Shown here one piece after another: positions 10,979 to 24,252 of a DNA stretch of 64,000 bases. The stretch covers positions 134,801 to 198,800 of the forward strand of contig JAJDVG010000010.1 in the NCBI GenBank assembly GCA_022826245.1, in the 5' to 3' direction. The stretch's first letter is position 1; each line of letters opens with the position of its first letter. The notes beneath the pieces are model-generated. The model did not search any database, had not been told where the DNA came from, and saw only the letters and a program-made list of their open reading frames with translations. Source of the stretch: Gammaproteobacteria bacterium (lineage in GTDB: Bacteria; Pseudomonadota; Gammaproteobacteria; Steroidobacterales; Rariloculaceae). A program made the translations under genes and the position numbers.

Positions 10979-11596
10979 TTATCGCACGCGATAGCCGTCC
11001 CGGTTCCGTGCCGGTGGCCGCGATGCGAACTGGTTGATCCAATGTACTTTTGCCGGAGTCGTCAGGCCCGCCAGGAGCATGGCCCGGGCGATCTCGTAAA
11101 TTGTCAGGCTGGCGCGGGACAGCAGGTACGCCAATTCGATCATGCGCAGGCGCGTGAGGAACTGCTCGACAATGTGGGCTTCGTGGTCGGTGAGGCGATC
11201 GGCGCGAAGCAGGCGACGAAGCTTTCCGCCGTCCGGGCGCGGATTGATTCCGGCCAAGTGGTCGGCGGCGAGCGTTTCCAGGTAGCGGTCGGGACTTGCG
11301 CACGGTGTGCGGCGACGGGCGTTCTCGTGATCGAACCATTCGATGGGCATCGGAGGCATCCTCGCCATGAACTCCGCGGGGCGGCCACCCTCGAACCGCG
11401 TCGGCGGTTTACCGGATCCGCCGATCAGGGAACCGTATTCGCCCATCCGAGAATCGCGCATATCAAGGCGGCGCCGGCGAGCCTCGGCGACGCGCTGCCG
11501 CTCGTAGGCCGCGATCCGCTCTTCGGCGGTAGGCACATGATCGCCCGGCGGCGGCGGGGAGTGGTAGGCGTGGCGGACAGCGTCGAAGTCGATCAT
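10979..11596 (-). CDS. Unrecognised 205-residue protein coupled to an AbiEii-type nucleotidyltransferase
   Basis: I do not recognise this protein. It has a Pro-rich start (about residues 13-22), a charged Arg/Glu helix (TAEERIAAYERQRVAEARRR), a middle section with two Pro-rich turns, and a C-terminal half that looks all-helical (from TDHEAHIVEQFL to VHWINQFA). It lacks signal peptide, membrane helix and cysteine motifs typical of zinc binding. Its ATG overlaps the stop of the upstream nucleotidyltransferase by four bases, which argues for coupled expression and possibly a physical complex. It might be an antitoxin or an accessory factor, but that is inference from position only. Confidence 0.6.
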   Translation of the reverse strand: MIDFDAVRHAYHSPPPPGDHVPTAEERIAAYERQRVAEARRRRLDMRDSRMGEYGSLIGGSGKPPTRFEGGRPAEFMARMPPMPIEWFDHENARRRTPCASPDRYLETLAADHLAGINPRPDGGKLRRLLRADRLTDHEAHIVEQFLTRLRMIELAYLLSRASLTIYEIARAMLLAGLTTPAKVHWINQFASRPPARNRDGYRVR

Positions 11597-14192: not shown

Positions 14193-14804
14193 TCAGAGAA
14201 GCTCCGCGAGCACGCGCCAGACGTTCTCGAAAATGATGGGTTGCCCGTTGGCGTTGGGGTGGATGCTGTCGCCCTGCATGAGTTCCGGACGCAGCGCGAC
14301 GCCTTCGAGCAGGAATTCGACGAGCGGAATCCCGTAGCGCTCGGCGAGCTCCGGATAGACGCCCGCGAACGCTCCCGTGTAGGCCGGGCCGTAATTCGGC
14401 GGGATCATGATCCCGGAGAGCACCGGAACGGCGCCGGAGTCCTGCACGAGTTCGATCATACGCGCGAGATTCTCGCGCATGTTGTCCACCGACAGTCCGC
14501 GCAGGCCATCGTTGCCGCCGAGCTCGATCACGACGATCGCGGGCTCCTGCGCCTCGAGCAGACGCGGCAGGCGGGTGAGCCCGCCGGACGTGGTGTCGCC
14601 GGCGATGCTGGCATTCACCACGTCGTAACCGTAAGCTTGGCGCTCCAGTTCGTTCGCCAGTATCTCCACCCAGGATCGTTCCGACCCCAGCCCGTAGCCG
14701 CTGCTCAGCGAGTCGCCGAGAACGACTATGGTCCGGTCCGCGCCCAAGGCCGGCAAGGCCTGGGAGGCAAGCACGACGAGGAGTGCAAGGGTACGTTTGA
14801 ACAT
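14193..14804 (-). CDS. tesA: Multifunctional acyl-CoA thioesterase I / arylesterase (GDSL, periplasmic)
   Basis: TesA is a periplasmic SGNH hydrolase that cleaves acyl-CoA and aryl or lysophospholipid esters. The 203-residue product has a signal peptide (residues 1-21, ending ALGA). The four SGNH blocks follow: GDSLSSGYGL (catalytic Ser), a Gly in block II, GGND (oxyanion hole), and DSIHPNANG (catalytic Asp and His). Its ATG at 14804 shares the palindrome CATG with the ybbA start on the other strand, so the two genes overlap by two bases head to head. fadD lies downstream in the same direction. Confidence 0.94.
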   Translation of the reverse strand: MFKRTLALLVVLASQALPALGADRTIVVLGDSLSSGYGLGSERSWVEILANELERQAYGYDVVNASIAGDTTSGGLTRLPRLLEAQEPAIVVIELGGNDGLRGLSVDNMRENLARMIELVQDSGAVPVLSGIMIPPNYGPAYTGAFAGVYPELAERYGIPLVEFLLEGVALRPELMQGDSIHPNANGQPIIFENVWRVLAELL

Positions 14805-15477
14805 GAATTCGGCAGACTATCTGCTCAGGGCCGAGTCCCTGACGAAAAAGGTTACCAGCCCCGAGGGGGAGCTGACCATCCTCGACGACGTGAGTCTCGA
14901 CATCGCGGCCGGCGAGTCCGCCGCCGTCGTTGGGCCCTCCGGCGCCGGCAAGACGACGCTGCTGTCGCTGCTGGCGGGCCTCGACGAACCCACTTCGGGG
15001 CAGGTCTGGCTCAACGGCGAGGAACTCACCGACCTCGACGAGGACGGCAGGGCTTCACTGCGCAACCGCGAGGTCGGTTTCATCTTCCAGTCCTTCCATC
15101 TGCTGCCCTCGCTTACCGCGATCGAGAACGTGCTCCTGCCGCTCGAGCTCAGCGCCACGCCGAACGCCAACGATCGCGCCCGCGAGGCGCTCGTCGAGGT
15201 CGGCCTCGACCACCGCCTGCGCCACTACCCGCGCCAGCTTTCCGGCGGCGAGAAGCAGCGCGTGGCCATCGCGCGCGCCTTCGTGACCGCGCCGTCGCTG
15301 CTGTTCGCGGACGAGCCCACGGGCAACCTCGACAACAAGACGGGCGGCCGCATCCTGAGCCTGCTCTTCGACCTCAATGCGGCCGCGGGCACCACGCTCG
15401 TGCTCGTCACCCACGATCTCGACGCGGCCGACCGCTGCGACCGCCTGCTCGAGCTTGCGAGCGGCCGGCTCGTCTGA
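14803..15477 (+). CDS. ybbA: ABC transporter ATP-binding protein YbbA
   Basis: YbbA is the ATPase of a MacB/LolD-type ABC system that normally works with the FtsX-like permease YbbP. The 224-residue product has Walker A GPSGAGKTT (about residues 45-53), a Q-loop (GFIFQSFHLLPSLTA), the signature LSGGEKQR, Walker B LLFADEPTGNLD and the switch His in VTHDL. The start at 14803 overlaps the tesA start. The expected ybbP gene is absent: only 91 bases separate ybbA from the convergent PEPC-like gene, so the permease must be elsewhere or lost. Confidence 0.92.
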   Translation: MNSADYLLRAESLTKKVTSPEGELTILDDVSLDIAAGESAAVVGPSGAGKTTLLSLLAGLDEPTSGQVWLNGEELTDLDEDGRASLRNREVGFIFQSFHLLPSLTAIENVLLPLELSATPNANDRAREALVEVGLDHRLRHYPRQLSGGEKQRVAIARAFVTAPSLLFADEPTGNLDNKTGGRILSLLFDLNAAAGTTLVLVTHDLDAADRCDRLLELASGRLV

Positions 15478-15568: not shown

Positions 15569-18292
15569 TCAGGCGGTGTCCTGCATGGCGTGGGCGATGC
15601 CGTTGACGCTTGCCTGCAGCGCCTGCAATACATCGTCGTCGTTGCGGCCGGCGCTGCGCCAGCGCTGCAGCAGATTGATCTGCAGCAGGCTCATCGGATC
15701 CACGTAGGGGTTTCTGAGCCTTATGCCCCGGCGCAGCGTCTCGGACCCTTCAAGCAGCTTCTCCTGTGAGTTGAGCCGTAAAACGCACGCAACGCAACGT
15801 TCGTATTCGTTGCGAATGACGGGAAAGAAGCGTTCGTGCAGCTCGCCCGCCAACCGCGAGTAACGCTTCGCGATGTCGAGGTCGGCTTTCGCGAGCGACA
15901 TCTCGACGCTCGAGACCAGGAAACGGAAGAAGCGCCACTGCCCGTACATCTGCGCGAGCGTGCCCTGGCCGAACAGCTCCATGCCCCGCTCGATGCCGCT
16001 CGCGAAGCCGAACCAGGCGGGCATCAGGCAGCGGTTCTGCGCCCAGGCGAATTCGAGCGTCGCCGCGTCGACGGCCTGCGGGCCGCTGCCCGCTGATGAA
16101 CTTGCGCCGATACCCAGACGCTCGAGCAGATCGATCGGCGTGGCTTTGCGGAAGTAGCGTTCAAACTCCGGCGTGCCGTGGACGAGCCCCTGATAGGCGT
16201 CGCGCGACGCCTCGGCGACCTCGCCCATTGCCGAGCGCCAGCGCCGCTGCTCGGGATGCTCGTCGGGGGGGCGTGCCGCGACGCTCAACACGGCGCTGAG
16301 CTTCTGCTCGAGCGTGCGCATCGCGATACCGCGCAGCCCGTAGTCGGTGTTGATCGTCTCGCCGTGTTCGGTCATGCGCAGGCGGCCCGCGATCGCGCCT
16401 GACGGCGCCGCGAGCACGGCGTCGAAGCCCCTGCCGCCGCGGTTGATCGCACAGCCGCGGCCGTGAAACAGCGTCAGTCGTACGCCGTAGCGTTCGAGCG
16501 TCGCAACGAGCGCGCGCTGGGCCTCGTCGAGCGTCCACGACGCCGAGACGACGCCGCCGTGGTCGCCGCCGTCGGAATGCTCGAGCATGATCATCTGGCG
16601 ATCGCCGCGCGCCCGGAGGTGGCTCCTGTAGCGCCCGTCCTCGAGAAGCCCCGCCATGATCGCTGCGGAGTTGCGCAGATCCTCCTCCGTCTCGAACAGC
16701 GGCACGATGTCGAGCGGCACGTCGGCGCCCTTGAGCCCAAGCCGCCCCCACCGGGCCAGCAGCAGCACCGACAGCACGTCGTCGGGACCGTGCGTCATCC
16801 TGACGATATAAGGACCGATCGCGCGCGCGCCGTACTTGCGCCGACAATGTGCGATCGCCTGAAAGACGCCGAGGATCTTGCGCGCTTCCGACGACAGCGG
16901 CCCGAGCGGCGACTCGCGCCGGTCGAGCGCCTCCTTGAGCCGCGCCGTGCGCCGCTCCGGCGTCCAGTCGAGCCATTCCCGCTCGTCGAGTCCCTCGGCG
17001 ACCACCCGTTGGTGCGTGAGCGCGTGCTGGCGAATGTCGAGCGTCGCCATGTGAAAGCCGAAGGTGCTAACGCGGCGCAGCAGCCGGTTGACCGCGAACA
17101 GGCCCGCATGCTGGCCGTGATTGGCGCGGAGGCTGTCCGCGATGAGCTCGATGTCCTGGCGTAGCTCGGCCGGCGACTCGTAGGGGAAGGCCCCGTCCTC
17201 GTGCGTCGCCTGCAGTCGGGCCTGCATGAGCCTGAGCAGAACCCGGTAAGGCATCTCCCTGTGCCTGACGGGCACGGCATGCGCCGCATGCGGAAAGTGC
17301 CCCGCGTACTCGCGGCTGCGAGCCTTGAGCTCGCTCGTGACCTTGATTCGCGACTCGCTCTGGCTCAACTGGCGCGCCAGGGCGCGGCACTCGTTGAAAT
17401 AGAGATTGAGCACGAGTGCGCGATGCCGCGCGAGGGATTCCCTGATGCTCTTGGCCGTGACGTTGGGGTCGCCGTCCATGTCGCCGCCGACGGAGGTCGA
17501 GAACCGTACGAGCACCGGTGGCCGGACGATGCGCGCCGCGTCGCCGTAGATCGTCAGCAACGCGTTCTCGAGGCTCTCGTAGAACGGCGGAATCATCCTG
17601 TACAGGACTTCGGCGATGAAGAACAGCACGTGCTCGGCATCGTCGCCGAGCCGGCGTTCGGTCGGCCGCTCCTCGGTCTGCCAGCCGGTCGTCATGTCGG
17701 TCCGCAGCCGGCCGAGCAACGCCGTGAGCTCATGCGGCGTGAGATAGGGATCGAGCATCCCCACGAGGTGCCTGGCGATTCTCTGCTGTTTCGCGAGCAG
17801 CGTCCGCCGCGTGGCCTGGGTGCGCGGCGCGCTGAACACCGGCTCGACGCGGGCTTGCGCGATGCACGCCTCGATTTCCGCAAGATTCACGCCTCCTGCC
17901 TTGAGCCGTTGCAGCGTGTCGATGAAGCCCAGCGGCTGCGGGGTGCTCGAATCGATCAGATAGTCGCGGCGGCGGCGGATCCTGTGGACCTTCTCGGCCA
18001 TGTTGACCATCTGGAAGTAGGTCGAGAACGCGCGAATGAGGTCGCGCGCGGTGATCGGCGTGAGTTCGGTGAGCGTATCCCTGAGCGTCCGGATCGCCCG
18101 CTTGTCGCCCTCGCGCAGCGCGATCGAAGCGCGGCGCGCGGACTCCACGAGATCGAACAGCGCCTCGCCGCCCTGATCCCTGACGAGTTCCCCGACCAGC
18201 GCGCCGAGGCGATGGACGTCCTCTCTGAGCGCCTTGTCCTTCTCGGCGAAGTGAATCGCCCGCAGGTCGGCTTGTGACGTCTCTTCGGTCAT
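15569..18292 (-). CDS. Phosphoenolpyruvate carboxylase-like protein with altered active-site motifs
   Basis: Full-length PEPC fold (907 residues) without frameshift. Family blocks remain: GGDMDGDPNVTA (about 255), DIRQ, FHGRG (609-613) and the C-terminal NPYVDPMSLLQINLL. However, key positions differ from active PEPCs: the catalytic-loop motif TAHPTE reads SAPRTQ at 154-159, so the essential His is Pro156; SDSAKDAG reads SDGGDHGG at 573-580, losing the Lys; FHGRGGS reads FHGRGCA; and the invariant C-terminal NTG reads DTA. The ATG at 18292 is chosen because it starts the PEPC-like sequence; the open frame upstream runs through palindromic repeats. PEPC fixes bicarbonate onto phosphoenolpyruvate to make oxaloacetate; whether this protein does so is doubtful. 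Confidence 0.88.
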   Translation of the reverse strand: MTEETSQADLRAIHFAEKDKALREDVHRLGALVGELVRDQGGEALFDLVESARRASIALREGDKRAIRTLRDTLTELTPITARDLIRAFSTYFQMVNMAEKVHRIRRRRDYLIDSSTPQPLGFIDTLQRLKAGGVNLAEIEACIAQARVEPVFSAPRTQATRRTLLAKQQRIARHLVGMLDPYLTPHELTALLGRLRTDMTTGWQTEERPTERRLGDDAEHVLFFIAEVLYRMIPPFYESLENALLTIYGDAARIVRPPVLVRFSTSVGGDMDGDPNVTAKSIRESLARHRALVLNLYFNECRALARQLSQSESRIKVTSELKARSREYAGHFPHAAHAVPVRHREMPYRVLLRLMQARLQATHEDGAFPYESPAELRQDIELIADSLRANHGQHAGLFAVNRLLRRVSTFGFHMATLDIRQHALTHQRVVAEGLDEREWLDWTPERRTARLKEALDRRESPLGPLSSEARKILGVFQAIAHCRRKYGARAIGPYIVRMTHGPDDVLSVLLLARWGRLGLKGADVPLDIVPLFETEEDLRNSAAIMAGLLEDGRYRSHLRARGDRQMIMLEHSDGGDHGGVVSASWTLDEAQRALVATLERYGVRLTLFHGRGCAINRGGRGFDAVLAAPSGAIAGRLRMTEHGETINTDYGLRGIAMRTLEQKLSAVLSVAARPPDEHPEQRRWRSAMGEVAEASRDAYQGLVHGTPEFERYFRKATPIDLLERLGIGASSSAGSGPQAVDAATLEFAWAQNRCLMPAWFGFASGIERGMELFGQGTLAQMYGQWRFFRFLVSSVEMSLAKADLDIAKRYSRLAGELHERFFPVIRNEYERCVACVLRLNSQEKLLEGSETLRRGIRLRNPYVDPMSLLQINLLQRWRSAGRNDDDVLQALQASVNGIAHAMQDTA

Positions 18293-18338
18293 GGGACGGC
18301 AGGGATTGTAACCGCTGGCCACATTGACTCGGCACCCC

Positions 18339-18430
18339 GGGGAGTCGCACTGTGGGCCGCTTGAAACACGCCGTGAATCCATCCCTGGAGGCTCCGCGCG
18401 CGCATCCCTGCGCGCGAGGGTTTCAAGCGG
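18339..18430. repeat. Palindromic repeat, family B copy 1 (right arm decayed)
   Basis: This copy shares about 92 bp with copy 2 at 18468, in the same orientation, starting ggggagtcgcactgtggg and carrying the nested gcgcgcgcatccctgcgcgcg hairpin in its centre (split here: gcgcgcgcat, ccctgcgcgcg). Its right arm matches only gtttcaagcgg and then diverges, so the outer stem is lost. It lies upstream of the PEPC-like gene. Confidence 0.8.
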
Positions 18431-18467
18431 TTCATAACGCCCGCCCGCTGGGTTGTCGCGGTGTGTC

Positions 18468-18577
18468 GGGGAGTCGCACTGTGGGCCGCTTGAAACACGC
18501 CGTGAATCCGTCCCTGGAGGCTCCGCGCGCGCATCCCTGCGCGCGAGGGTTTCAAGCGGCCCACAGTGCAACTCCCC
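18468..18577. repeat. Palindromic repeat, family B copy 2
   Basis: Arms of 29 bp at 18468-18496 and 18549-18577 are inverted complements with one mismatch. The centre contains a second, smaller hairpin built from cgcgcgc and gcgcgcg runs. It is a direct repeat of copy 1, about 129 bp away, and lies between the 3' end of the ABC exporter and the 5' end of the PEPC-like gene. Copy 3 at 20544 has the same centre in inverted orientation. Confidence 0.85.
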
Positions 18578-18604: not shown

Positions 18605-20440
18605 CTACCGGTAGGCGCGGGCCTGCAACTCGAAGAGCCGGGCGTAGCGGCCGTCGAGCGCCATGAGTTCGGCGTGGGCGCCCCTTTCGATGATCCGCCC
18701 TTCGTCGAGCACGACGATCTGGTCCGCGTGGCGCACGGTCGAGAAGCGATGCGAGATAAGGATCGCGATCCGGTCCTTCGTGAGCGAGCGGAAATGCTCG
18801 AATATTTCGGCTTCGGTCTCGGCGTCCATCGACGAGGTCGGTTCGTCGAGCACGAGGATGTCGGCCTGTTCGCGCATGAAGGCGCGGGCGAGCGCGATGC
18901 GTTGCCATTGCCCGGAGGACAGTTCCTGGCCCCGGTTGAACCAGCGGCCGAGTTGCGTCTCGTAGTGCTCCGGCAGCGTCTCGATGAAGCCCGAGGCCTG
19001 CCCCTTGCGCGCGGCCTCGCGCCAGCGCGGCTCGTCCATCAGCGCCTCGATGTCGCCGACGCCGATGTTCTCCCCGACCTTGAGCTGGTAGCGCGTGAAA
19101 TCCTGAAAGATCACGCCGATGCGCCGCTTGAGCGCTGCCGGATCCCATTCCTCGAGATCGAGGCCCTGATAGCTGATCGAACCCTGGTCGGGGCGGTAGA
19201 GCCCGGCGAGCAGCTTCACGAGCGTCGTCTTGCCCGAACCGTTGTGACCGACGAGCGCGACGCTCTGACCGGGATCGATGTCGAGCGTGATGTTGCGTAC
19301 GGCGGGGGTCGCGGCGCCGGGGTACGTGAAACTCACGTCGGCGAAGGCGATGCCCTTGTCCGCATCGACGCCGCCCGGCGCGCCGCCCGGGCGCTCGAGC
19401 CCCGGCTGCTCGAGATAGTCGTAGAGATTCGACAGGTACAGATTGTCCTCGTACATGCCGCCGATCGCGCTCAGCATGGCCGACACCGCCGTCTGGCCCT
19501 GCCGGAAGACGACCAGGTACATCGTCATCTGTCCGAGGCTGATCTGCCCCTGGATCGTCGCGACGGCGACCCAGGCGCACGCCCCGTAGAACGCGAGCGT
19601 ACCGAAGAGCCCGAGCGCGAATCCCCAGGAATCCCGGCGCACCGTGAGCTGCCGCTCGTCCCGGTACATGCGCGAGAAAATGTCCCGGTAGCGCCGCATG
19701 AGCCCGGGCCCGAGGTTGAAGAGCTTGACCTCCTTGGCGTGATCCTCGCGGGCCAGCACGATTTCCAGGTACAGCAGCATGCGGCGCAGCGGCGAGTGCC
19801 ACTGGAAGATGCGGAAGCGCTCGCCGGAGAACTTCGCTTCGGCGAGGAAAACGGGCAGGCCCGCGCAGACGAGCACGACCACCGCCCACGGAGAGAACTG
19901 CGCGAGCAGGCCCGCATAGCTTGCGAGCGCGATGCCGTTGCGGGCGAGCGTGAAAGTGCGGTTGACGAGACTCAGTGGCCGGCTCGACGCTTCCTGCCGC
20001 GCCCGGTTGAGCTTGTCGTAGAACTCCGAGTCCTCGAACTGCGCGAGTTCGAGCGTCAGGGCCTTGTCGAGGATCATGACGTGCACGCGCCGGCTCAGCA
20101 GCACGCGCAGCAGCGTCTGGCAGAAGTCGATGCCGCGCTGGGCGCCTGCAAGAGCCGCCACGAGCACGCCCTCGATCACGACCAATCTCAGCACGGGCGC
20201 GTAATCGGCCGCGCCGTCCGCCTGGAACGCGGCAATGGCAGCAACGACCGCGTCGACGAAGAGTTGCCCGACAAAGGCGATGGCGGCCGGCAGCAAACCG
20301 GCGCACACGGTCAGCAGACCCAGCGCCACGGTCAGACCGCGGTGCGTGGTCCAGACGAGCGCGATCGCGCGCTTGCTGTAACCCCAGACGCCGAGGAAGC
20401 TCTCCATCGGCATCACGGACTTTTCGCTCACGGTGGCCAT
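18605..20440 (-). CDS. ABC exporter, fused membrane and ATPase domains
   Basis: A half-transporter that probably acts as a homodimer; the substrate is unknown. The 611-residue product has a type-I exporter membrane domain with about six helices (residues 30-330) and an ATPase domain from about residue 360. The ATPase has Walker A GHNGSGKTT, Q-loop VIFQDFTRY, a signature reading LSSGQWQRI rather than LSGGQ, Walker B ILVLDEPTSSMD and the H-loop ISHRFSTV. The LSSGQ variant occurs in peptide and lantibiotic exporters. No peptidase domain is present. The gene is alone, with family B repeats on both sides. Confidence 0.88.
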   Translation of the reverse strand: MATVSEKSVMPMESFLGVWGYSKRAIALVWTTHRGLTVALGLLTVCAGLLPAAIAFVGQLFVDAVVAAIAAFQADGAADYAPVLRLVVIEGVLVAALAGAQRGIDFCQTLLRVLLSRRVHVMILDKALTLELAQFEDSEFYDKLNRARQEASSRPLSLVNRTFTLARNGIALASYAGLLAQFSPWAVVVLVCAGLPVFLAEAKFSGERFRIFQWHSPLRRMLLYLEIVLAREDHAKEVKLFNLGPGLMRRYRDIFSRMYRDERQLTVRRDSWGFALGLFGTLAFYGACAWVAVATIQGQISLGQMTMYLVVFRQGQTAVSAMLSAIGGMYEDNLYLSNLYDYLEQPGLERPGGAPGGVDADKGIAFADVSFTYPGAATPAVRNITLDIDPGQSVALVGHNGSGKTTLVKLLAGLYRPDQGSISYQGLDLEEWDPAALKRRIGVIFQDFTRYQLKVGENIGVGDIEALMDEPRWREAARKGQASGFIETLPEHYETQLGRWFNRGQELSSGQWQRIALARAFMREQADILVLDEPTSSMDAETEAEIFEHFRSLTKDRIAILISHRFSTVRHADQIVVLDEGRIIERGAHAELMALDGRYARLFELQARAYR

Positions 20441-20543
20441 GGCAAAAGCCCTCGCAACTCATCGAGCCGCACTGCGTTCCGGAAACGACCAGCTCGGTCA
20501 AAGGCAAGGACAAGCGGCAGCGAGCGGGCTGCCGCGAACGCAA

Positions 20544-20653
20544 GGGGAGGCGTACTACCGGTGGCTTGAGACCCTCGCGCGCAGGGACGCGCGCGCGGAG
20601 CGTACAGGGACGTATTTACCGCGTGTCTCAAGCCACCGGTAGTGCGCCTCCCC
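20544..20653. repeat. Palindromic repeat, family B copy 3 (inverted relative to copies 1 and 2)
   Basis: Arms of 28 bp at 20544-20571 and 20626-20653 pair with one mismatch. The central sequence is the inverse of copies 1 and 2 (gcgcgcagggacgcgcgcgc, then gtattta..cgcgtgt). Arm sequences differ from copy 2 at several positions, yet each copy stays self-complementary, so the stem is conserved by covariation. It lies in the 340-base divergent spacer between the ABC exporter and the SLC13 gene; I see no clear promoter in the remainder. Confidence 0.85.
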
Positions 20654-20780
20654 GCAAAAAAATGCGACCGGCAGTTCGCCTCCCCGCATCCCCCGCGCCA
20701 CCATCGCACAGCACCAAGCCGTGGCCATCCGGCGGTTGGCGTGGTATTAGGGACCAGGGAACTTGCCAGTGGCTTGAGCC

Positions 20781-22613
20781 GTGTCCGCACTTCCAGACCT
20801 GTCCACAATATTCGTCCTGCTGCTCACGTGCTTCGCGCTGTACCTGTTCACGCGCGACAAACTGCCGTTGGAGGCGTCGGGGCTGACCATTCTGATCATC
20901 CTCGTCGTGACGTTTCAACTGTTCCCGCATCCGAGCGGGCAGCTCACGCCGCAGGCCTTCCTGTCCGGTTTCGGCCACCAGGCGCTGATCACGATCTGCG
21001 CGCTGATGATGCTCGGCAAGGGCATGGAAACGACCGGCGCCCTGCAGCCGCTCGCCGGAGCGCTCGCCAACGCCTGGAGGCGCAACCGGGTCCTGGCGAG
21101 CCTGCTCACCCTGATCATGGCCGGCGTGCTGAGTTCCTTCGTCAATACCACGCCGATCGTCATCATGCTGCTGCCGATGCTCATGGGCGTCGCCGTGCGC
21201 AACAAGCTCTCCCCGTCTTCCGTGCTCATGCCGGTCGGGCTCGCGGTGCTGCTCGGCGGCATGGCGACGACCATCGGCACATCGACGAACCTGCTCGTCG
21301 TCGCCATAGCGGCCGACCTCGGCGCGGTGCAGTTCAGCATGTTCGATTACACCCTGCCGGTCGTGATCGTCGCCGGTTTCGGCATGCTGTACCTGTGGCT
21401 GATCGCCCCGCGCCTGCTGCCTGAACGCAAGGCGCCCATCGCCGATTCCATGCCGCGCGTCTTCAACGCGATGCTCCACATCCACGACGACAGCGTCGCC
21501 TGCGGCAAGACCTTCGCCCAGTGCCTGGCGCTCACGAACAACGCGCTCAGGGTCGACCGGATCGAACGCGGCGACGGCCTGTTCGTCGCGAAGCTTCCGT
21601 CCGTCACGCTGCAGGCCGGCGATCGGCTCGCCGTTCGCGATACGCCGGAGCGGCTCAAGGAATTCGAAAAGCAGATCGGCGCGACGCTGCACGACGTCTC
21701 CGGCACCGGGGAGGCGGACCTGACGGCCCCAGCGGGCGTCGTTCCGGAACAGGAGCAGCTCGCCGAAATCGTGGTCACGGGCAGCTCGATCCTGCACAAC
21801 TCGAGCCTGTCCGCCACCCGATTCGCGCAGCGCACGGGGCTGCTGCCGCTCGCGCTGCACCGCGCGGGCGAAGACAGCGGCGAGGACGGGACCGGCCATG
21901 TCGGCCTGGTGCCGCTGCGTGCCGGCGATGTCGTACTCGTGCAGGGTACGCAGAAGCAGCTCAACGAACTCAAGCGCCTGAAGATGGCGCTCGTGCTCGA
22001 CGGCAGTACCGACCTGCCGCGCACGCATCGGTCGAGCTGGGCGTTGTCGATCATGATCTTCGTCGTGCTTAGCGCGGCGCTAAATATCCTCCCGATCGTG
22101 GTCAGCGCACTGGCTGGCGTCGGACTCATGCTCGCAACCCGCTGCCTGACCTGGAAGGACGCAGGCTCCGCCCTGCATCCGCCCGTCATCGTCATCATCG
22201 TCACGAGTCTTGCGCTCGGACTCGCGCTCACCGCAACGGGGGCGGCGACGTTCATCGCGCAGGGGTTCCTGGCCGCCGTCTCGTCCATGCCCACCCCGGT
22301 GATCCTGAGCTCCCTCATGCTCGTCATGGCGGTGCTGACGAGCATCGTCTCGAACAACGCCGCCGGCGTGATCGGTACGCCGATCGCCATCCAGATCGCC
22401 TCGGAACTCGGCGTGTCGCCCGAACCGTTCGTGCTGGCCGTGATCTTCGGCGCCAACATGAGCTATGCGACGCCGTTCGGCTACCAGACCAATCTGCTCA
22501 TCATGGCCGCCGGCGGTTACAAGTTCAGCGATTTCGTGCGCGTCGGCGGCCCGCTCGTGCTGATCACCTGGCTCGGTTTCTCCATCGTGCTGCCGCTGCT
22601 GTACGACCTGTGA
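20781..22613 (+). CDS. SLC13/DASS-family anion permease with two RCK-C domains
   Basis: A sodium-coupled anion or dicarboxylate transporter family member; sulfate, citrate or dicarboxylates are possible substrates. The 610-residue product has about ten to twelve membrane helices in two halves. Each half carries a conserved Asn/Thr loop (SSFVNTTPIV near residue 115 and SIVSNNAAGVIGTP near 525). Between them lie two soluble RCK-C (TrkA-C) domains at about 230-310 and 330-415. The GTG at 20781 is the first start consistent with the family N-terminus. It stands just upstream of the trp operon but no functional link is evident. Confidence 0.87.
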   Translation: MSALPDLSTIFVLLLTCFALYLFTRDKLPLEASGLTILIILVVTFQLFPHPSGQLTPQAFLSGFGHQALITICALMMLGKGMETTGALQPLAGALANAWRRNRVLASLLTLIMAGVLSSFVNTTPIVIMLLPMLMGVAVRNKLSPSSVLMPVGLAVLLGGMATTIGTSTNLLVVAIAADLGAVQFSMFDYTLPVVIVAGFGMLYLWLIAPRLLPERKAPIADSMPRVFNAMLHIHDDSVACGKTFAQCLALTNNALRVDRIERGDGLFVAKLPSVTLQAGDRLAVRDTPERLKEFEKQIGATLHDVSGTGEADLTAPAGVVPEQEQLAEIVVTGSSILHNSSLSATRFAQRTGLLPLALHRAGEDSGEDGTGHVGLVPLRAGDVVLVQGTQKQLNELKRLKMALVLDGSTDLPRTHRSSWALSIMIFVVLSAALNILPIVVSALAGVGLMLATRCLTWKDAGSALHPPVIVIIVTSLALGLALTATGAATFIAQGFLAAVSSMPTPVILSSLMLVMAVLTSIVSNNAAGVIGTPIAIQIASELGVSPEPFVLAVIFGANMSYATPFGYQTNLLIMAAGGYKFSDFVRVGGPLVLITWLGFSIVLPLLYDL

Positions 22614-22625
22614 GCGCCGCCCGCC

Positions 22626-22654
22626 TTGACCGTGCCGGGTCCGCCGGACATACT
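22626..22654 (+). promoter_or_regulatory. Candidate trp operon promoter
   Basis: A TTGACC -35 (22626-22631) and CATACT -10 (22649-22654) are separated by 17 bases. Transcription would start near 22661, just before the trp leader peptide, so the leader's translation start would be unusually close to the 5' end. Confidence 0.6.
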
Positions 22655-22662
22655 TCGCGTCC

Positions 22663-22731
22663 ATGAACGCGCGTGCCATGAAGCTGGCCTCGACAAATCG
22701 CTGGTGGCGAAGGCCGTCAGCGGGTGGGTAA
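22663..22731 (+). CDS. trpL: trp operon leader peptide
   Basis: A 22-codon open frame (or 17 codons from the second ATG at 22678) contains two adjacent tryptophan codons at 22702-22707 (context NRWWRR) and stops at 22731. Trp is a rare residue, and tandem Trp codons just upstream of an intrinsic terminator and trpE are the signature of ribosome-mediated attenuation. No convincing ribosome-binding site is visible for either start. The peptide itself probably has no function beyond sensing charged tRNA-Trp. Confidence 0.8.
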   Translation: MNARAMKLASTNRWWRRPSAGG

Positions 22732-22812
22732 CGCGCGCCTGGACTGAAGCAGTCTGTCCGAATACGGGTCATGCGAACCCATCTCCGCCAAGCCGGGGAT
22801 GGGTTTGTTGCA
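22699..22812 (+). promoter_or_regulatory. trp attenuator: competing hairpins and intrinsic terminator
   Basis: Three mutually exclusive pairings can be read. Segment 1 (22699-22703, overlapping the first Trp codon) pairs with 22718-22722. Segment 2 (22722-22729) can instead pair over 8 bp, two of them G-U, with 22777-22784. The terminator is an 11-bp stem, 22776-22786 with 22795-22805, an 8-base loop and a T-rich tail. A ribosome stalled at the Trp codons would free segment 2, block the terminator and allow trpE transcription. A further small hairpin lies at 22743-22755. Confidence 0.75.
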
Positions 22813-22857
22813 TTCTGGAGCATCGAAAAGCCGAAACTGAAGGCAGAGCAAGGACCA

Positions 22858-24248
22858 ATGGAATCACCGTTCGACATCGCGGCCGATCTCGATACGCCCG
22901 TCTCGGCGTATCTCAAGCTCGCGCCGTTCGAGCCGCGCTTTCTGCTGGAGAGCGTGGAGAGCGGCGAACGGCTGGCGCGCTACTCCTTCCTCGGCTTCGG
23001 CGAGGGTCTGACGCTCGAATTTCGCGCGGACAGGGACGAGGTGCTCCTCGACGGCGCGGCGCGACCGAAGCCCGGCAGCGCGGCCGAGTGGCTCGCGCTC
23101 ATGCGCGAGGCGCTGGCGCTGAGCCCTGAACTCAGGCCCGCCATCCCGGAAATTCCGTTTAACGGCGGGCTGGTCGGCGCCGCGGGCTACGATGTCGTGC
23201 GCTACTTCGAGCGGCTGCCGCCCAACCGCTCCGAACTCGACGGCGGGCTGCCGCAGGGCGCGTTCGTCGCGCCGCGCTCGGTGCTCGTGTTCGACCATCT
23301 GACGCGGCGCGTCGCGCTGCTGCATGCGGGATCCGAGGCGGAGCGCCAGGCGCTGCGCCGCGAGGTCATCAGGGCGCTGCGCGGCGGGGTCAGCGCCGTG
23401 CGCGCAGGCAACGGCTTCAGCGGGGCCGAATCGAGCTTCGCCAAACCGGACTTTCTCGACGCCGTGGACCGCTGCAAGGCGCACATCGGCGCGGGCGACA
23501 TCTACCAGATCGTGCTCTCGTCGCGGTTCAGCGGACAAACCGCACTCGACCCCTTCCAGACCTACCGCGGCATGCGGCTGCTCAATCCCTCCCCGTACTT
23601 GTTCTTCTTCGAGCTCGGCGACCTCAGGGTCGCCGGTTCCTCGCCCGAAGCGCTGGTCAGGCTCGATGGCCGCCAGGCCTCGCTCCGGCCCATCGCCGGC
23701 ACGCGGCCGCGCGGCGCCACGCGGTCCGAAGATACGGGCCTCGAGCAGGAACTGCTCGCCGACCCCAAGGAGAACGCCGAGCACATCATGCTCGTCGATC
23801 TCGCGCGCAACGATCTCGGCCGGGTCGCGCACGCGGGGTCCGTGCACGTCGATCCGTACCGCAATATCGAGCGCTACAGCCATGTCATGCACATCGTCAG
23901 CGGCGTGAAGGGTCGGCTCGCCGACGAGCGCGATGCGCTCGATCTCTTCGCGGCGGCGTTTCCGGCCGGCACGCTCGTCGGCGCGCCCAAGGTCCGCGCG
24001 ATGGAGCTCATCGCCGGATTCGAGCCCGTCGGGCGCGGCCTTTACGGCGGCACCGTCGGCTACTTCGCGAAGAACGGCAATATGGACCAGGCCATCACGA
24101 TCCGCACGATGGTGTTCAACGGCGACGAATACAGCTTTCAGGCAGGCGCCGGCATCGTCGCCGACAGCGTGCCCGAACGCGAACACGACGAAGTGCTGGC
24201 CAAGAGCGCGATCCTGCGGCGCGCACTGGAGCTTGCGGAGGAAGGACT

Positions 24249-24252
<4 letters not shown>
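22858..24252 (+). CDS. trpE: Anthranilate synthase component I
   Basis: TrpE converts chorismate and ammonia to anthranilate, with TrpG supplying ammonia from glutamine. The 464-residue product has the LLES feedback-inhibition motif near the N-terminus ([19 protein letters not shown]), then the chorismate-binding domain with [29 protein letters not shown] and GGTVGYF. The ATG at 22858 follows an AAGGA ribosome site five bases upstream; earlier in-frame starts lie inside the attenuator. The stop overlaps trpG (GTGA), consistent with coupled synthesis of the two subunits. Trp inhibition is likely because the LLES motif is intact. Confidence 0.96.

Follow-up and report, generated by a model that had tools for sequence, protein, structure and literature searches.

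A native PEP carboxylase gene probably converted in place to a pseudoenzyme gene, with repeated loss of catalytic residues among its relatives

The window, the whole stretch of 64,000 nucleotides that was analysed, carries on its reverse strand a gene for a 907-residue homologue of phosphoenolpyruvate (PEP) carboxylase (PEPC), whose frame had been described as intact in the first-pass annotation and indeed translates without an internal stop. The gene, its altered motifs and its conserved neighbours are as follows, with residues numbered as in E. coli PEPC from an alignment to that protein (L061).

14193-15477, both strands: conserved genes downstream of the PEPC gene, GDSL esterase (tesA-like, reverse) and ABC ATPase (ybbA-like, forward)
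15569-18292, reverse strand: eroded PEPC (putative pseudo-PEPC), 907 aa, ATG start at 18292
15572-15580, reverse strand: C-terminal NTG changed to DTA (N881D, G883A)
15713-15715, reverse strand: inhibitor-site arginine R832 (R860 in the window protein), retained in 54/54 eroded proteins
16061-16105, reverse strand: mobile loop GSRP...LRAIPW changed to GASS...VDAATL (R713D at 16067-16069, R699S at 16100-16102)
16439-16468, reverse strand: FHGRGGS loop changed to FHGRGCA, with H579, R581 and R587 retained
16553-16576, reverse strand: SDSxKDxG loop changed to SDGGDHGG (K546D at 16562-16564; D543 retained at 16571-16573)
17816-17833, reverse strand: catalytic loop TAHPTE changed to SAPRTQ (H138P, P139R, E141Q)
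18605-20440, reverse strand: ABC transporter, 611 aa, conserved neighbour immediately upstream of the PEPC gene
20781-24252, forward strand: CitMHS/TrkA_C transporter and trpE, conserved neighbours that mark the ancestral PEPC locus

Two copies of a REP- or MITE-like palindromic repeat of 93 nt (18338-18430 and 18467-18559, 99% identical) lie just upstream of the PEPC gene, and related inverted copies are located at about 20526-20654, on the far side of the ABC transporter gene. Elsewhere in the window an AbiEii-family nucleotidyltransferase gene (PF08843, 11593-12315, reverse strand) overlaps a gene for a 205-aa protein without a Pfam match (10979-11596, reverse strand), and the two possibly form a type IV toxin-antitoxin or defence pair.

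The Pfam profile PF00311 matched the 907-aa protein over its full length (727 bits, profile positions 1-918 of 919), the best solved relative by sequence was E. coli PEPC (1fiy, E = 3e-107), and the AlphaFold2 model, for which 31 homologues served as input, had a mean pLDDT of 88.5 and a pTM of 0.89, with Arabidopsis and E. coli PEPC (8oj9, 1jqn) as the top Foldseek matches at a TM of about 0.85-0.89. On this model the protein is predicted to adopt the PEPC fold, and fold and end-to-end profile match together place it in the homologous PEPC family. The pLDDT fell below 50 at the N-terminus and at residues 574-576, 613-619 and 731-739, three segments which belong to altered catalytic loops, the last of them to the mobile loop. 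The NCBIfam equivalog model for the enzyme itself (PRK00009.1) gave 737.6 bits against a cut-off of 815.

In E. coli PEPC, H138 and R587 are essential, the PEP phosphate is held by R396, R581 and R713, the metal is bound by E506 and D543, K546 acts in bicarbonate binding, and the aspartate site consists of R587, K773, R832 and N881. Relative to this enzyme we found the substitutions H138P, P139R, E141Q, W248S, K546D, R699S, R713D, N881D and G883A, while R396, E506, D543, H579, R581, R587, K773 and R832 were retained. The translation bore out SAPRTQ at residues 154-159 and the motifs SDGGDHGG, FHGRGCA and C-terminal DTA just as the first-pass annotation had described them; its list of losses was correct but incomplete, having missed the equally damaging R713D, R699S and W248S, and its statement that the FHGRG block remains holds for the window protein (H579, R581 and R587 are still there) but not for the two sister species, in which R581 is His. 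Each of the three congeneric species has Pro at the histidine of TAHPTE, K546D and R713D occur in 3/3 and R699 is lost in 2/3 (G002 being the one member that keeps it); both metal ligands, E506 and D543, are present. Among 93 invariant positions, defined on 30 intact PEPCs (25 of the order, E. coli and 4 others), 22 were substituted in the window protein, 26 in its congener G001 and 24 in G002. With aspartate in place of K546 and R713, the binding of PEP and bicarbonate should be prevented. Compared with E. coli Ppc (EC 4.1.1.31; PF00311), the window protein has the same fold and length, is homologous over its full length and shares R587, R832 and the metal ligands, but has H138, K546, R699, R713, N881 and the terminal Gly replaced and scores below the equivalog cut-off; judged by its residues, it is a PEPC homologue that fails tested defining features of the enzyme.

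The gene is nevertheless constrained. Pairwise dN/dS of PEPC among the three species was 0.187, 0.190 and 0.136 at dS of 0.53, 0.66 and 0.39, respectively, which is unsaturated, and these values were computed with the open frame extended slightly upstream, an inclusion expected to raise rather than lower them; neighbouring genes in the same genomes gave 0.22-0.24 (fadD), 0.15 (ABC transporter), 0.13-0.18 (tesA) and 0.13-0.14 (ybbA). All three frames are open, and no stop-creating change was seen in any pair against roughly 20-50 expected under neutrality. The ratio of divergence in the catalytic loops to that in the rest of the protein was 0.98, 1.05 and 0.87 in the pairs of the genus and 0.05-0.33 in five pairs of intact PEPCs. 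The pocket is now ordinary protein which has lost its extra constraint, and the protein as a whole is under strong purifying selection. This combination is our main argument, since loss of constraint in the loops of a protein that is otherwise constrained favours a non-catalytic function over a new chemistry in the pocket.

The genome is 96.5% complete and contained one PF00311 match in the family search; a canonical second ppc, which the first-pass annotation had proposed to look for, was not found in it, nor was a second PF00311 match in any of the three genomes of the genus (G000, G001 and G002). The closest intact relatives, at about 58-63% identity, belong to the same family as the window (f1) and carry their PEPC at the same locus, flanked on one side by the 611-aa ABC transporter, the CitMHS/TrkA_C transporter and the trpE region, and on the other by ybbA, tesA and fadD. 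In the tree, the genus of the window is nested among intact PEPCs and adjoins G005. The shared locus and the nested position indicate that a native enzyme was converted in place, and a dead duplicate beside a live paralogue was rejected, because the gene is the sole PEPC of its genome and is syntenic with intact orthologues. Whether the substitutions define a clade, a check that the first-pass annotation had proposed, can be answered at the level of the genus, whose three species share the main losses.

Further, we looked for partners of the protein. No partner gene was found at the locus, where the neighbours are ordinary metabolic and transport genes whose order follows ancestry, and a conserved operon partner was rejected, the ABC transporter, ybbA/tesA and fadD being ancestral surroundings common to intact relatives. 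A D-2-hydroxyacid dehydrogenase gene and a CxxCxxCC-domain gene, which sit between PEPC and the tesA/ybbA-like genes in most intact relatives, are not at the window locus. The dehydrogenase gene lies 0.5-3.9 kb from PEPC in most intact families and, in family f15 (L173/G097 and others), directly after the eroded PEPC on the same strand at most loci examined; as a general partner it was rejected, because it was not found at the locus in the genus of the window.

Erosion of PEPC is not confined to this genus. A PF00311 search covered 166 genomes from the order, each at least 85% complete; 154 of them have the family, and a few are without any PEPC. Among 105 aligned PEPC sequences, nearly all of the order, 54 were eroded, meaning that at least one of eleven catalytic residues was lost, and all 54 genes were open. 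After the tree had been rebuilt with the catalytic loops excluded, parsimony required at least 9 state changes, or 12 losses if loss is irreversible, and a stricter definition (at least 2 residues lost) also gave 12. Read from these residues, catalysis is predicted to have been lost separately in about ten related lineages. The losses comprise most sampled native PEPCs of f10, all native ones of f15, and those of f12 and f4 except foreign-looking second copies; family f1 has three separate eroded groups, namely the genus of the window, G019/G020, and G021, a mild case with R699Q alone among the eleven residues. Every sampled PEPC of f2, f5, f6, f11 and f16 is intact. Replacements vary widely (A, E, G, H, S, Y, R or deletion at D543; D, R, Q, A, L, M, S, G or V at K546; P, Q or S at H138). 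In a few f10 proteins all eleven residues are present but N881 is gone, and active and inactive proteins are thus not sharply separated. Across 31 intact native proteins, 197 positions reach a conservation of 97% or more; in the 54 eroded ones, 31 of these positions dropped below 70%, mostly near 136, 253-257, 504-510, 540-546, 583-586, 611-618, 698-703, 713-715 and 881-882, i.e. mostly in catalytic loops, and 75 stayed at 97% or more in both sets, 26 of which differ from E. coli. At the effector site of the eroded proteins, R832 was invariant and R587 was present in 91%, but changes at K773 and N881 are frequent.

A second, intact PEPC was present in 11 of the 54 genomes with an eroded native gene and in none of the 35 with an intact native gene (Fisher p = 0.003, relatedness ignored), and the eroded gene was still present in all 11. 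These copies fall outside the native position in the tree, and the wide scatter of several of them suggests repeated acquisition; intact, foreign-looking copies also occur in G072 and G118, whose native genes are not in the sample. The second copies fit the idea that eroded proteins do not make oxaloacetate, and the persistence of the eroded gene next to a working PEPC is in line with another job for it. A pyruvate carboxylase or second PEPC was found in 32/54 eroded and 13/35 intact genomes (p = 0.052); that erosion follows the gain of pyruvate carboxylase is accordingly a trend only, and it is false for the genus of the window, in which the sole PYC_OADA protein is a decarboxylase.

On this evidence, a native, vertically inherited PEPC has probably been converted in place to a pseudoenzyme and kept for a non-catalytic role. 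The claim of a pseudo-enzyme kept under selection gains support from the genus-wide losses in a sole PEPC with dN/dS of 0.14-0.19 and no stops, and the sequence has the marks of a pseudoenzyme, i.e. essential residues lost, fold retained and purifying selection. The residues for PEP binding and carboxylation have been replaced, the fold is retained and the pocket has lost its extra constraint; the protein presumably no longer makes oxaloacetate, and the non-catalytic function may already have existed in the active ancestor and be the reason why the protein is kept. Such an ancestral second function would explain why many lineages independently dropped catalysis while keeping the protein.

Two other readings leave the protein an enzyme. 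A new chemistry in the old pocket, in which E506 and D543 bind metal and D546, D713, C583, P138 and D881 act on a different substrate, agrees with the retained metal ligands, with the presence of K546D, R713D, G583C, H138P, P139R and N881D in 3/3 species, and with a change of the pocket from basic to acidic that would favour a different ligand; the first-pass annotation had offered it as an option. It is less well supported and in our view unlikely, because loop divergence within the genus matches that of the remaining protein (SDGGDHGG, SDGSDYAG and SDGSDYGG; S, G or R at position 699) and other eroded lineages have unrelated replacements, several of them without D543. The protein could also be a slow PEPC, or a bicarbonate-dependent PEP phosphatase (which the H138N mutant of E. 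coli PEPC reportedly is), with enough activity for anaplerosis. The best argument for this is an anaplerotic gap, which continued oxaloacetate formation by the protein would help to explain: family searches of the genus found no full-length pyruvate carboxylase, true isocitrate lyase, malate synthase, malic enzyme or methylmalonyl-CoA mutase, there is no second PEPC, and the PYC_OADA protein adjoins OAD_beta and is the alpha subunit of a Na+-pumping oxaloacetate decarboxylase. Residual activity is nonetheless quite unlikely, since acidic residues stand at two of the four changed positions H138, K546, R699 and R713, the change of a phosphate-binding arginine to aspartate should prevent PEP binding, and the special constraint on the loops is gone. 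Moreover, the sole standard anaplerotic enzyme found besides the PEPC homologue is a GTP-PEPCK whose P-loop (PSQCGKT) is intact, and PEPCK carboxylates PEP in some organisms (PMC8100219); by analogy, it may run toward oxaloacetate here, or C4 acids may derive from amino acids. The decarboxylase genes (OadA, OadB) lie at L091:6094-9030 in the window genome, which has no evident oxaloacetate-forming carboxylase.

A slowly dying, functionless gene whose frame is open by chance would account for the many changed conserved sites, for the free variation in the loops of some eroded lineages and for the few genomes without PEPC, yet it is very improbable given a dN/dS equal to that of working neighbours at unsaturated dS, the absence of stops, and 54/54 open genes in families with long stems; the same values speak against a recent pseudogene under relaxed selection, the outcome named beforehand as contrary to a retained protein. 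The other such outcome, close homologues with identical substitutions known as active PEPCs, was not encountered either. As the genomes are mostly drafts and probably many are metagenome-assembled, an annotation or assembly artefact was considered as well, but the main losses recur in the three independently assembled genomes of the genus, and further eroded copies come from single-contig genomes (G048, G063, G079 and G091), so that this explanation can hardly be credited.

Known systems provide partial parallels to the pseudoenzyme that we favour. Plant bacterial-type PEPC is a PEPC-family protein with a regulatory role in class-2 PEPC hetero-octamers (PMC13172252, PMC5854131), but it is a catalytic as well as regulatory subunit that partners plant-type PEPC. 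No partner catalytic PEPC was found in G000, G001 or G002, and the window protein therefore cannot regulate a second PEPC, whereas a potential partner exists in the 11 other eroded genomes with two copies. Archaeal-type PEPC, a distinct protein group that reportedly lacks the residues with which the bacterial and plant type binds inhibitors (PMC8100219), has the same reaction class but is not the group matched by the window protein. Bacterial pseudo-orthocaspases, an example of pseudoenzymes in general, are described as conserving the fold with catalytic residues lost (PMC6426788); these have another fold, and the PEPC conversion appears to have recurred some ten times, in a single orthologous enzyme that belongs to central metabolism. 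In a non-exhaustive search of the open-access literature, no report of an inactive, pseudo- or moonlighting bacterial PEPC was found.

For the order as a whole, we tentatively propose, as something quite possible, that its PEPCs carry a second, non-catalytic function as sensor or scaffold which is the real reason for keeping the gene, and that catalysis was shed about ten times, sometimes followed by the apparent acquisition of a foreign working PEPC with the native protein retained. The likeliest form might be a PEPC oligomer that senses effectors for another enzyme or regulator or provides it with a scaffold; an effector-sensing role is possible and weakly indicated, mainly by one invariant arginine, because K773 and N881 vary across the eroded proteins. 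PEPC, a textbook anaplerotic enzyme, receives its annotation by homology. If roughly half of the PEPCs sampled in this large order are catalytically dead, metabolic models and carbon-fixation surveys of these organisms would be wrong at the PEP-pyruvate-oxaloacetate node, and repeated loss of catalysis with the protein retained suggests that PEPC has a second function which has gone unrecognised. Sister lineages with intact and with eroded PEPC, together with genomes that hold both, offer replicate natural experiments which could separate this function from catalysis, and the genus of the window raises the concrete question of how C4 acids are replenished.

Other PEPCs of the order deserve mention. 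In f10, L106, L107, L116 and L030 have the eleven catalytic residues, with N881 replaced by Ala and K773 often changed, and are nested among inactive relatives; they are possibly active enzymes freed from aspartate inhibition. In f14, G034 and G047 (L056, L057) have a very divergent PEPC with TAHPTQ and FDGRGG (H579 replaced), which forms a long branch outside the clade of the order.
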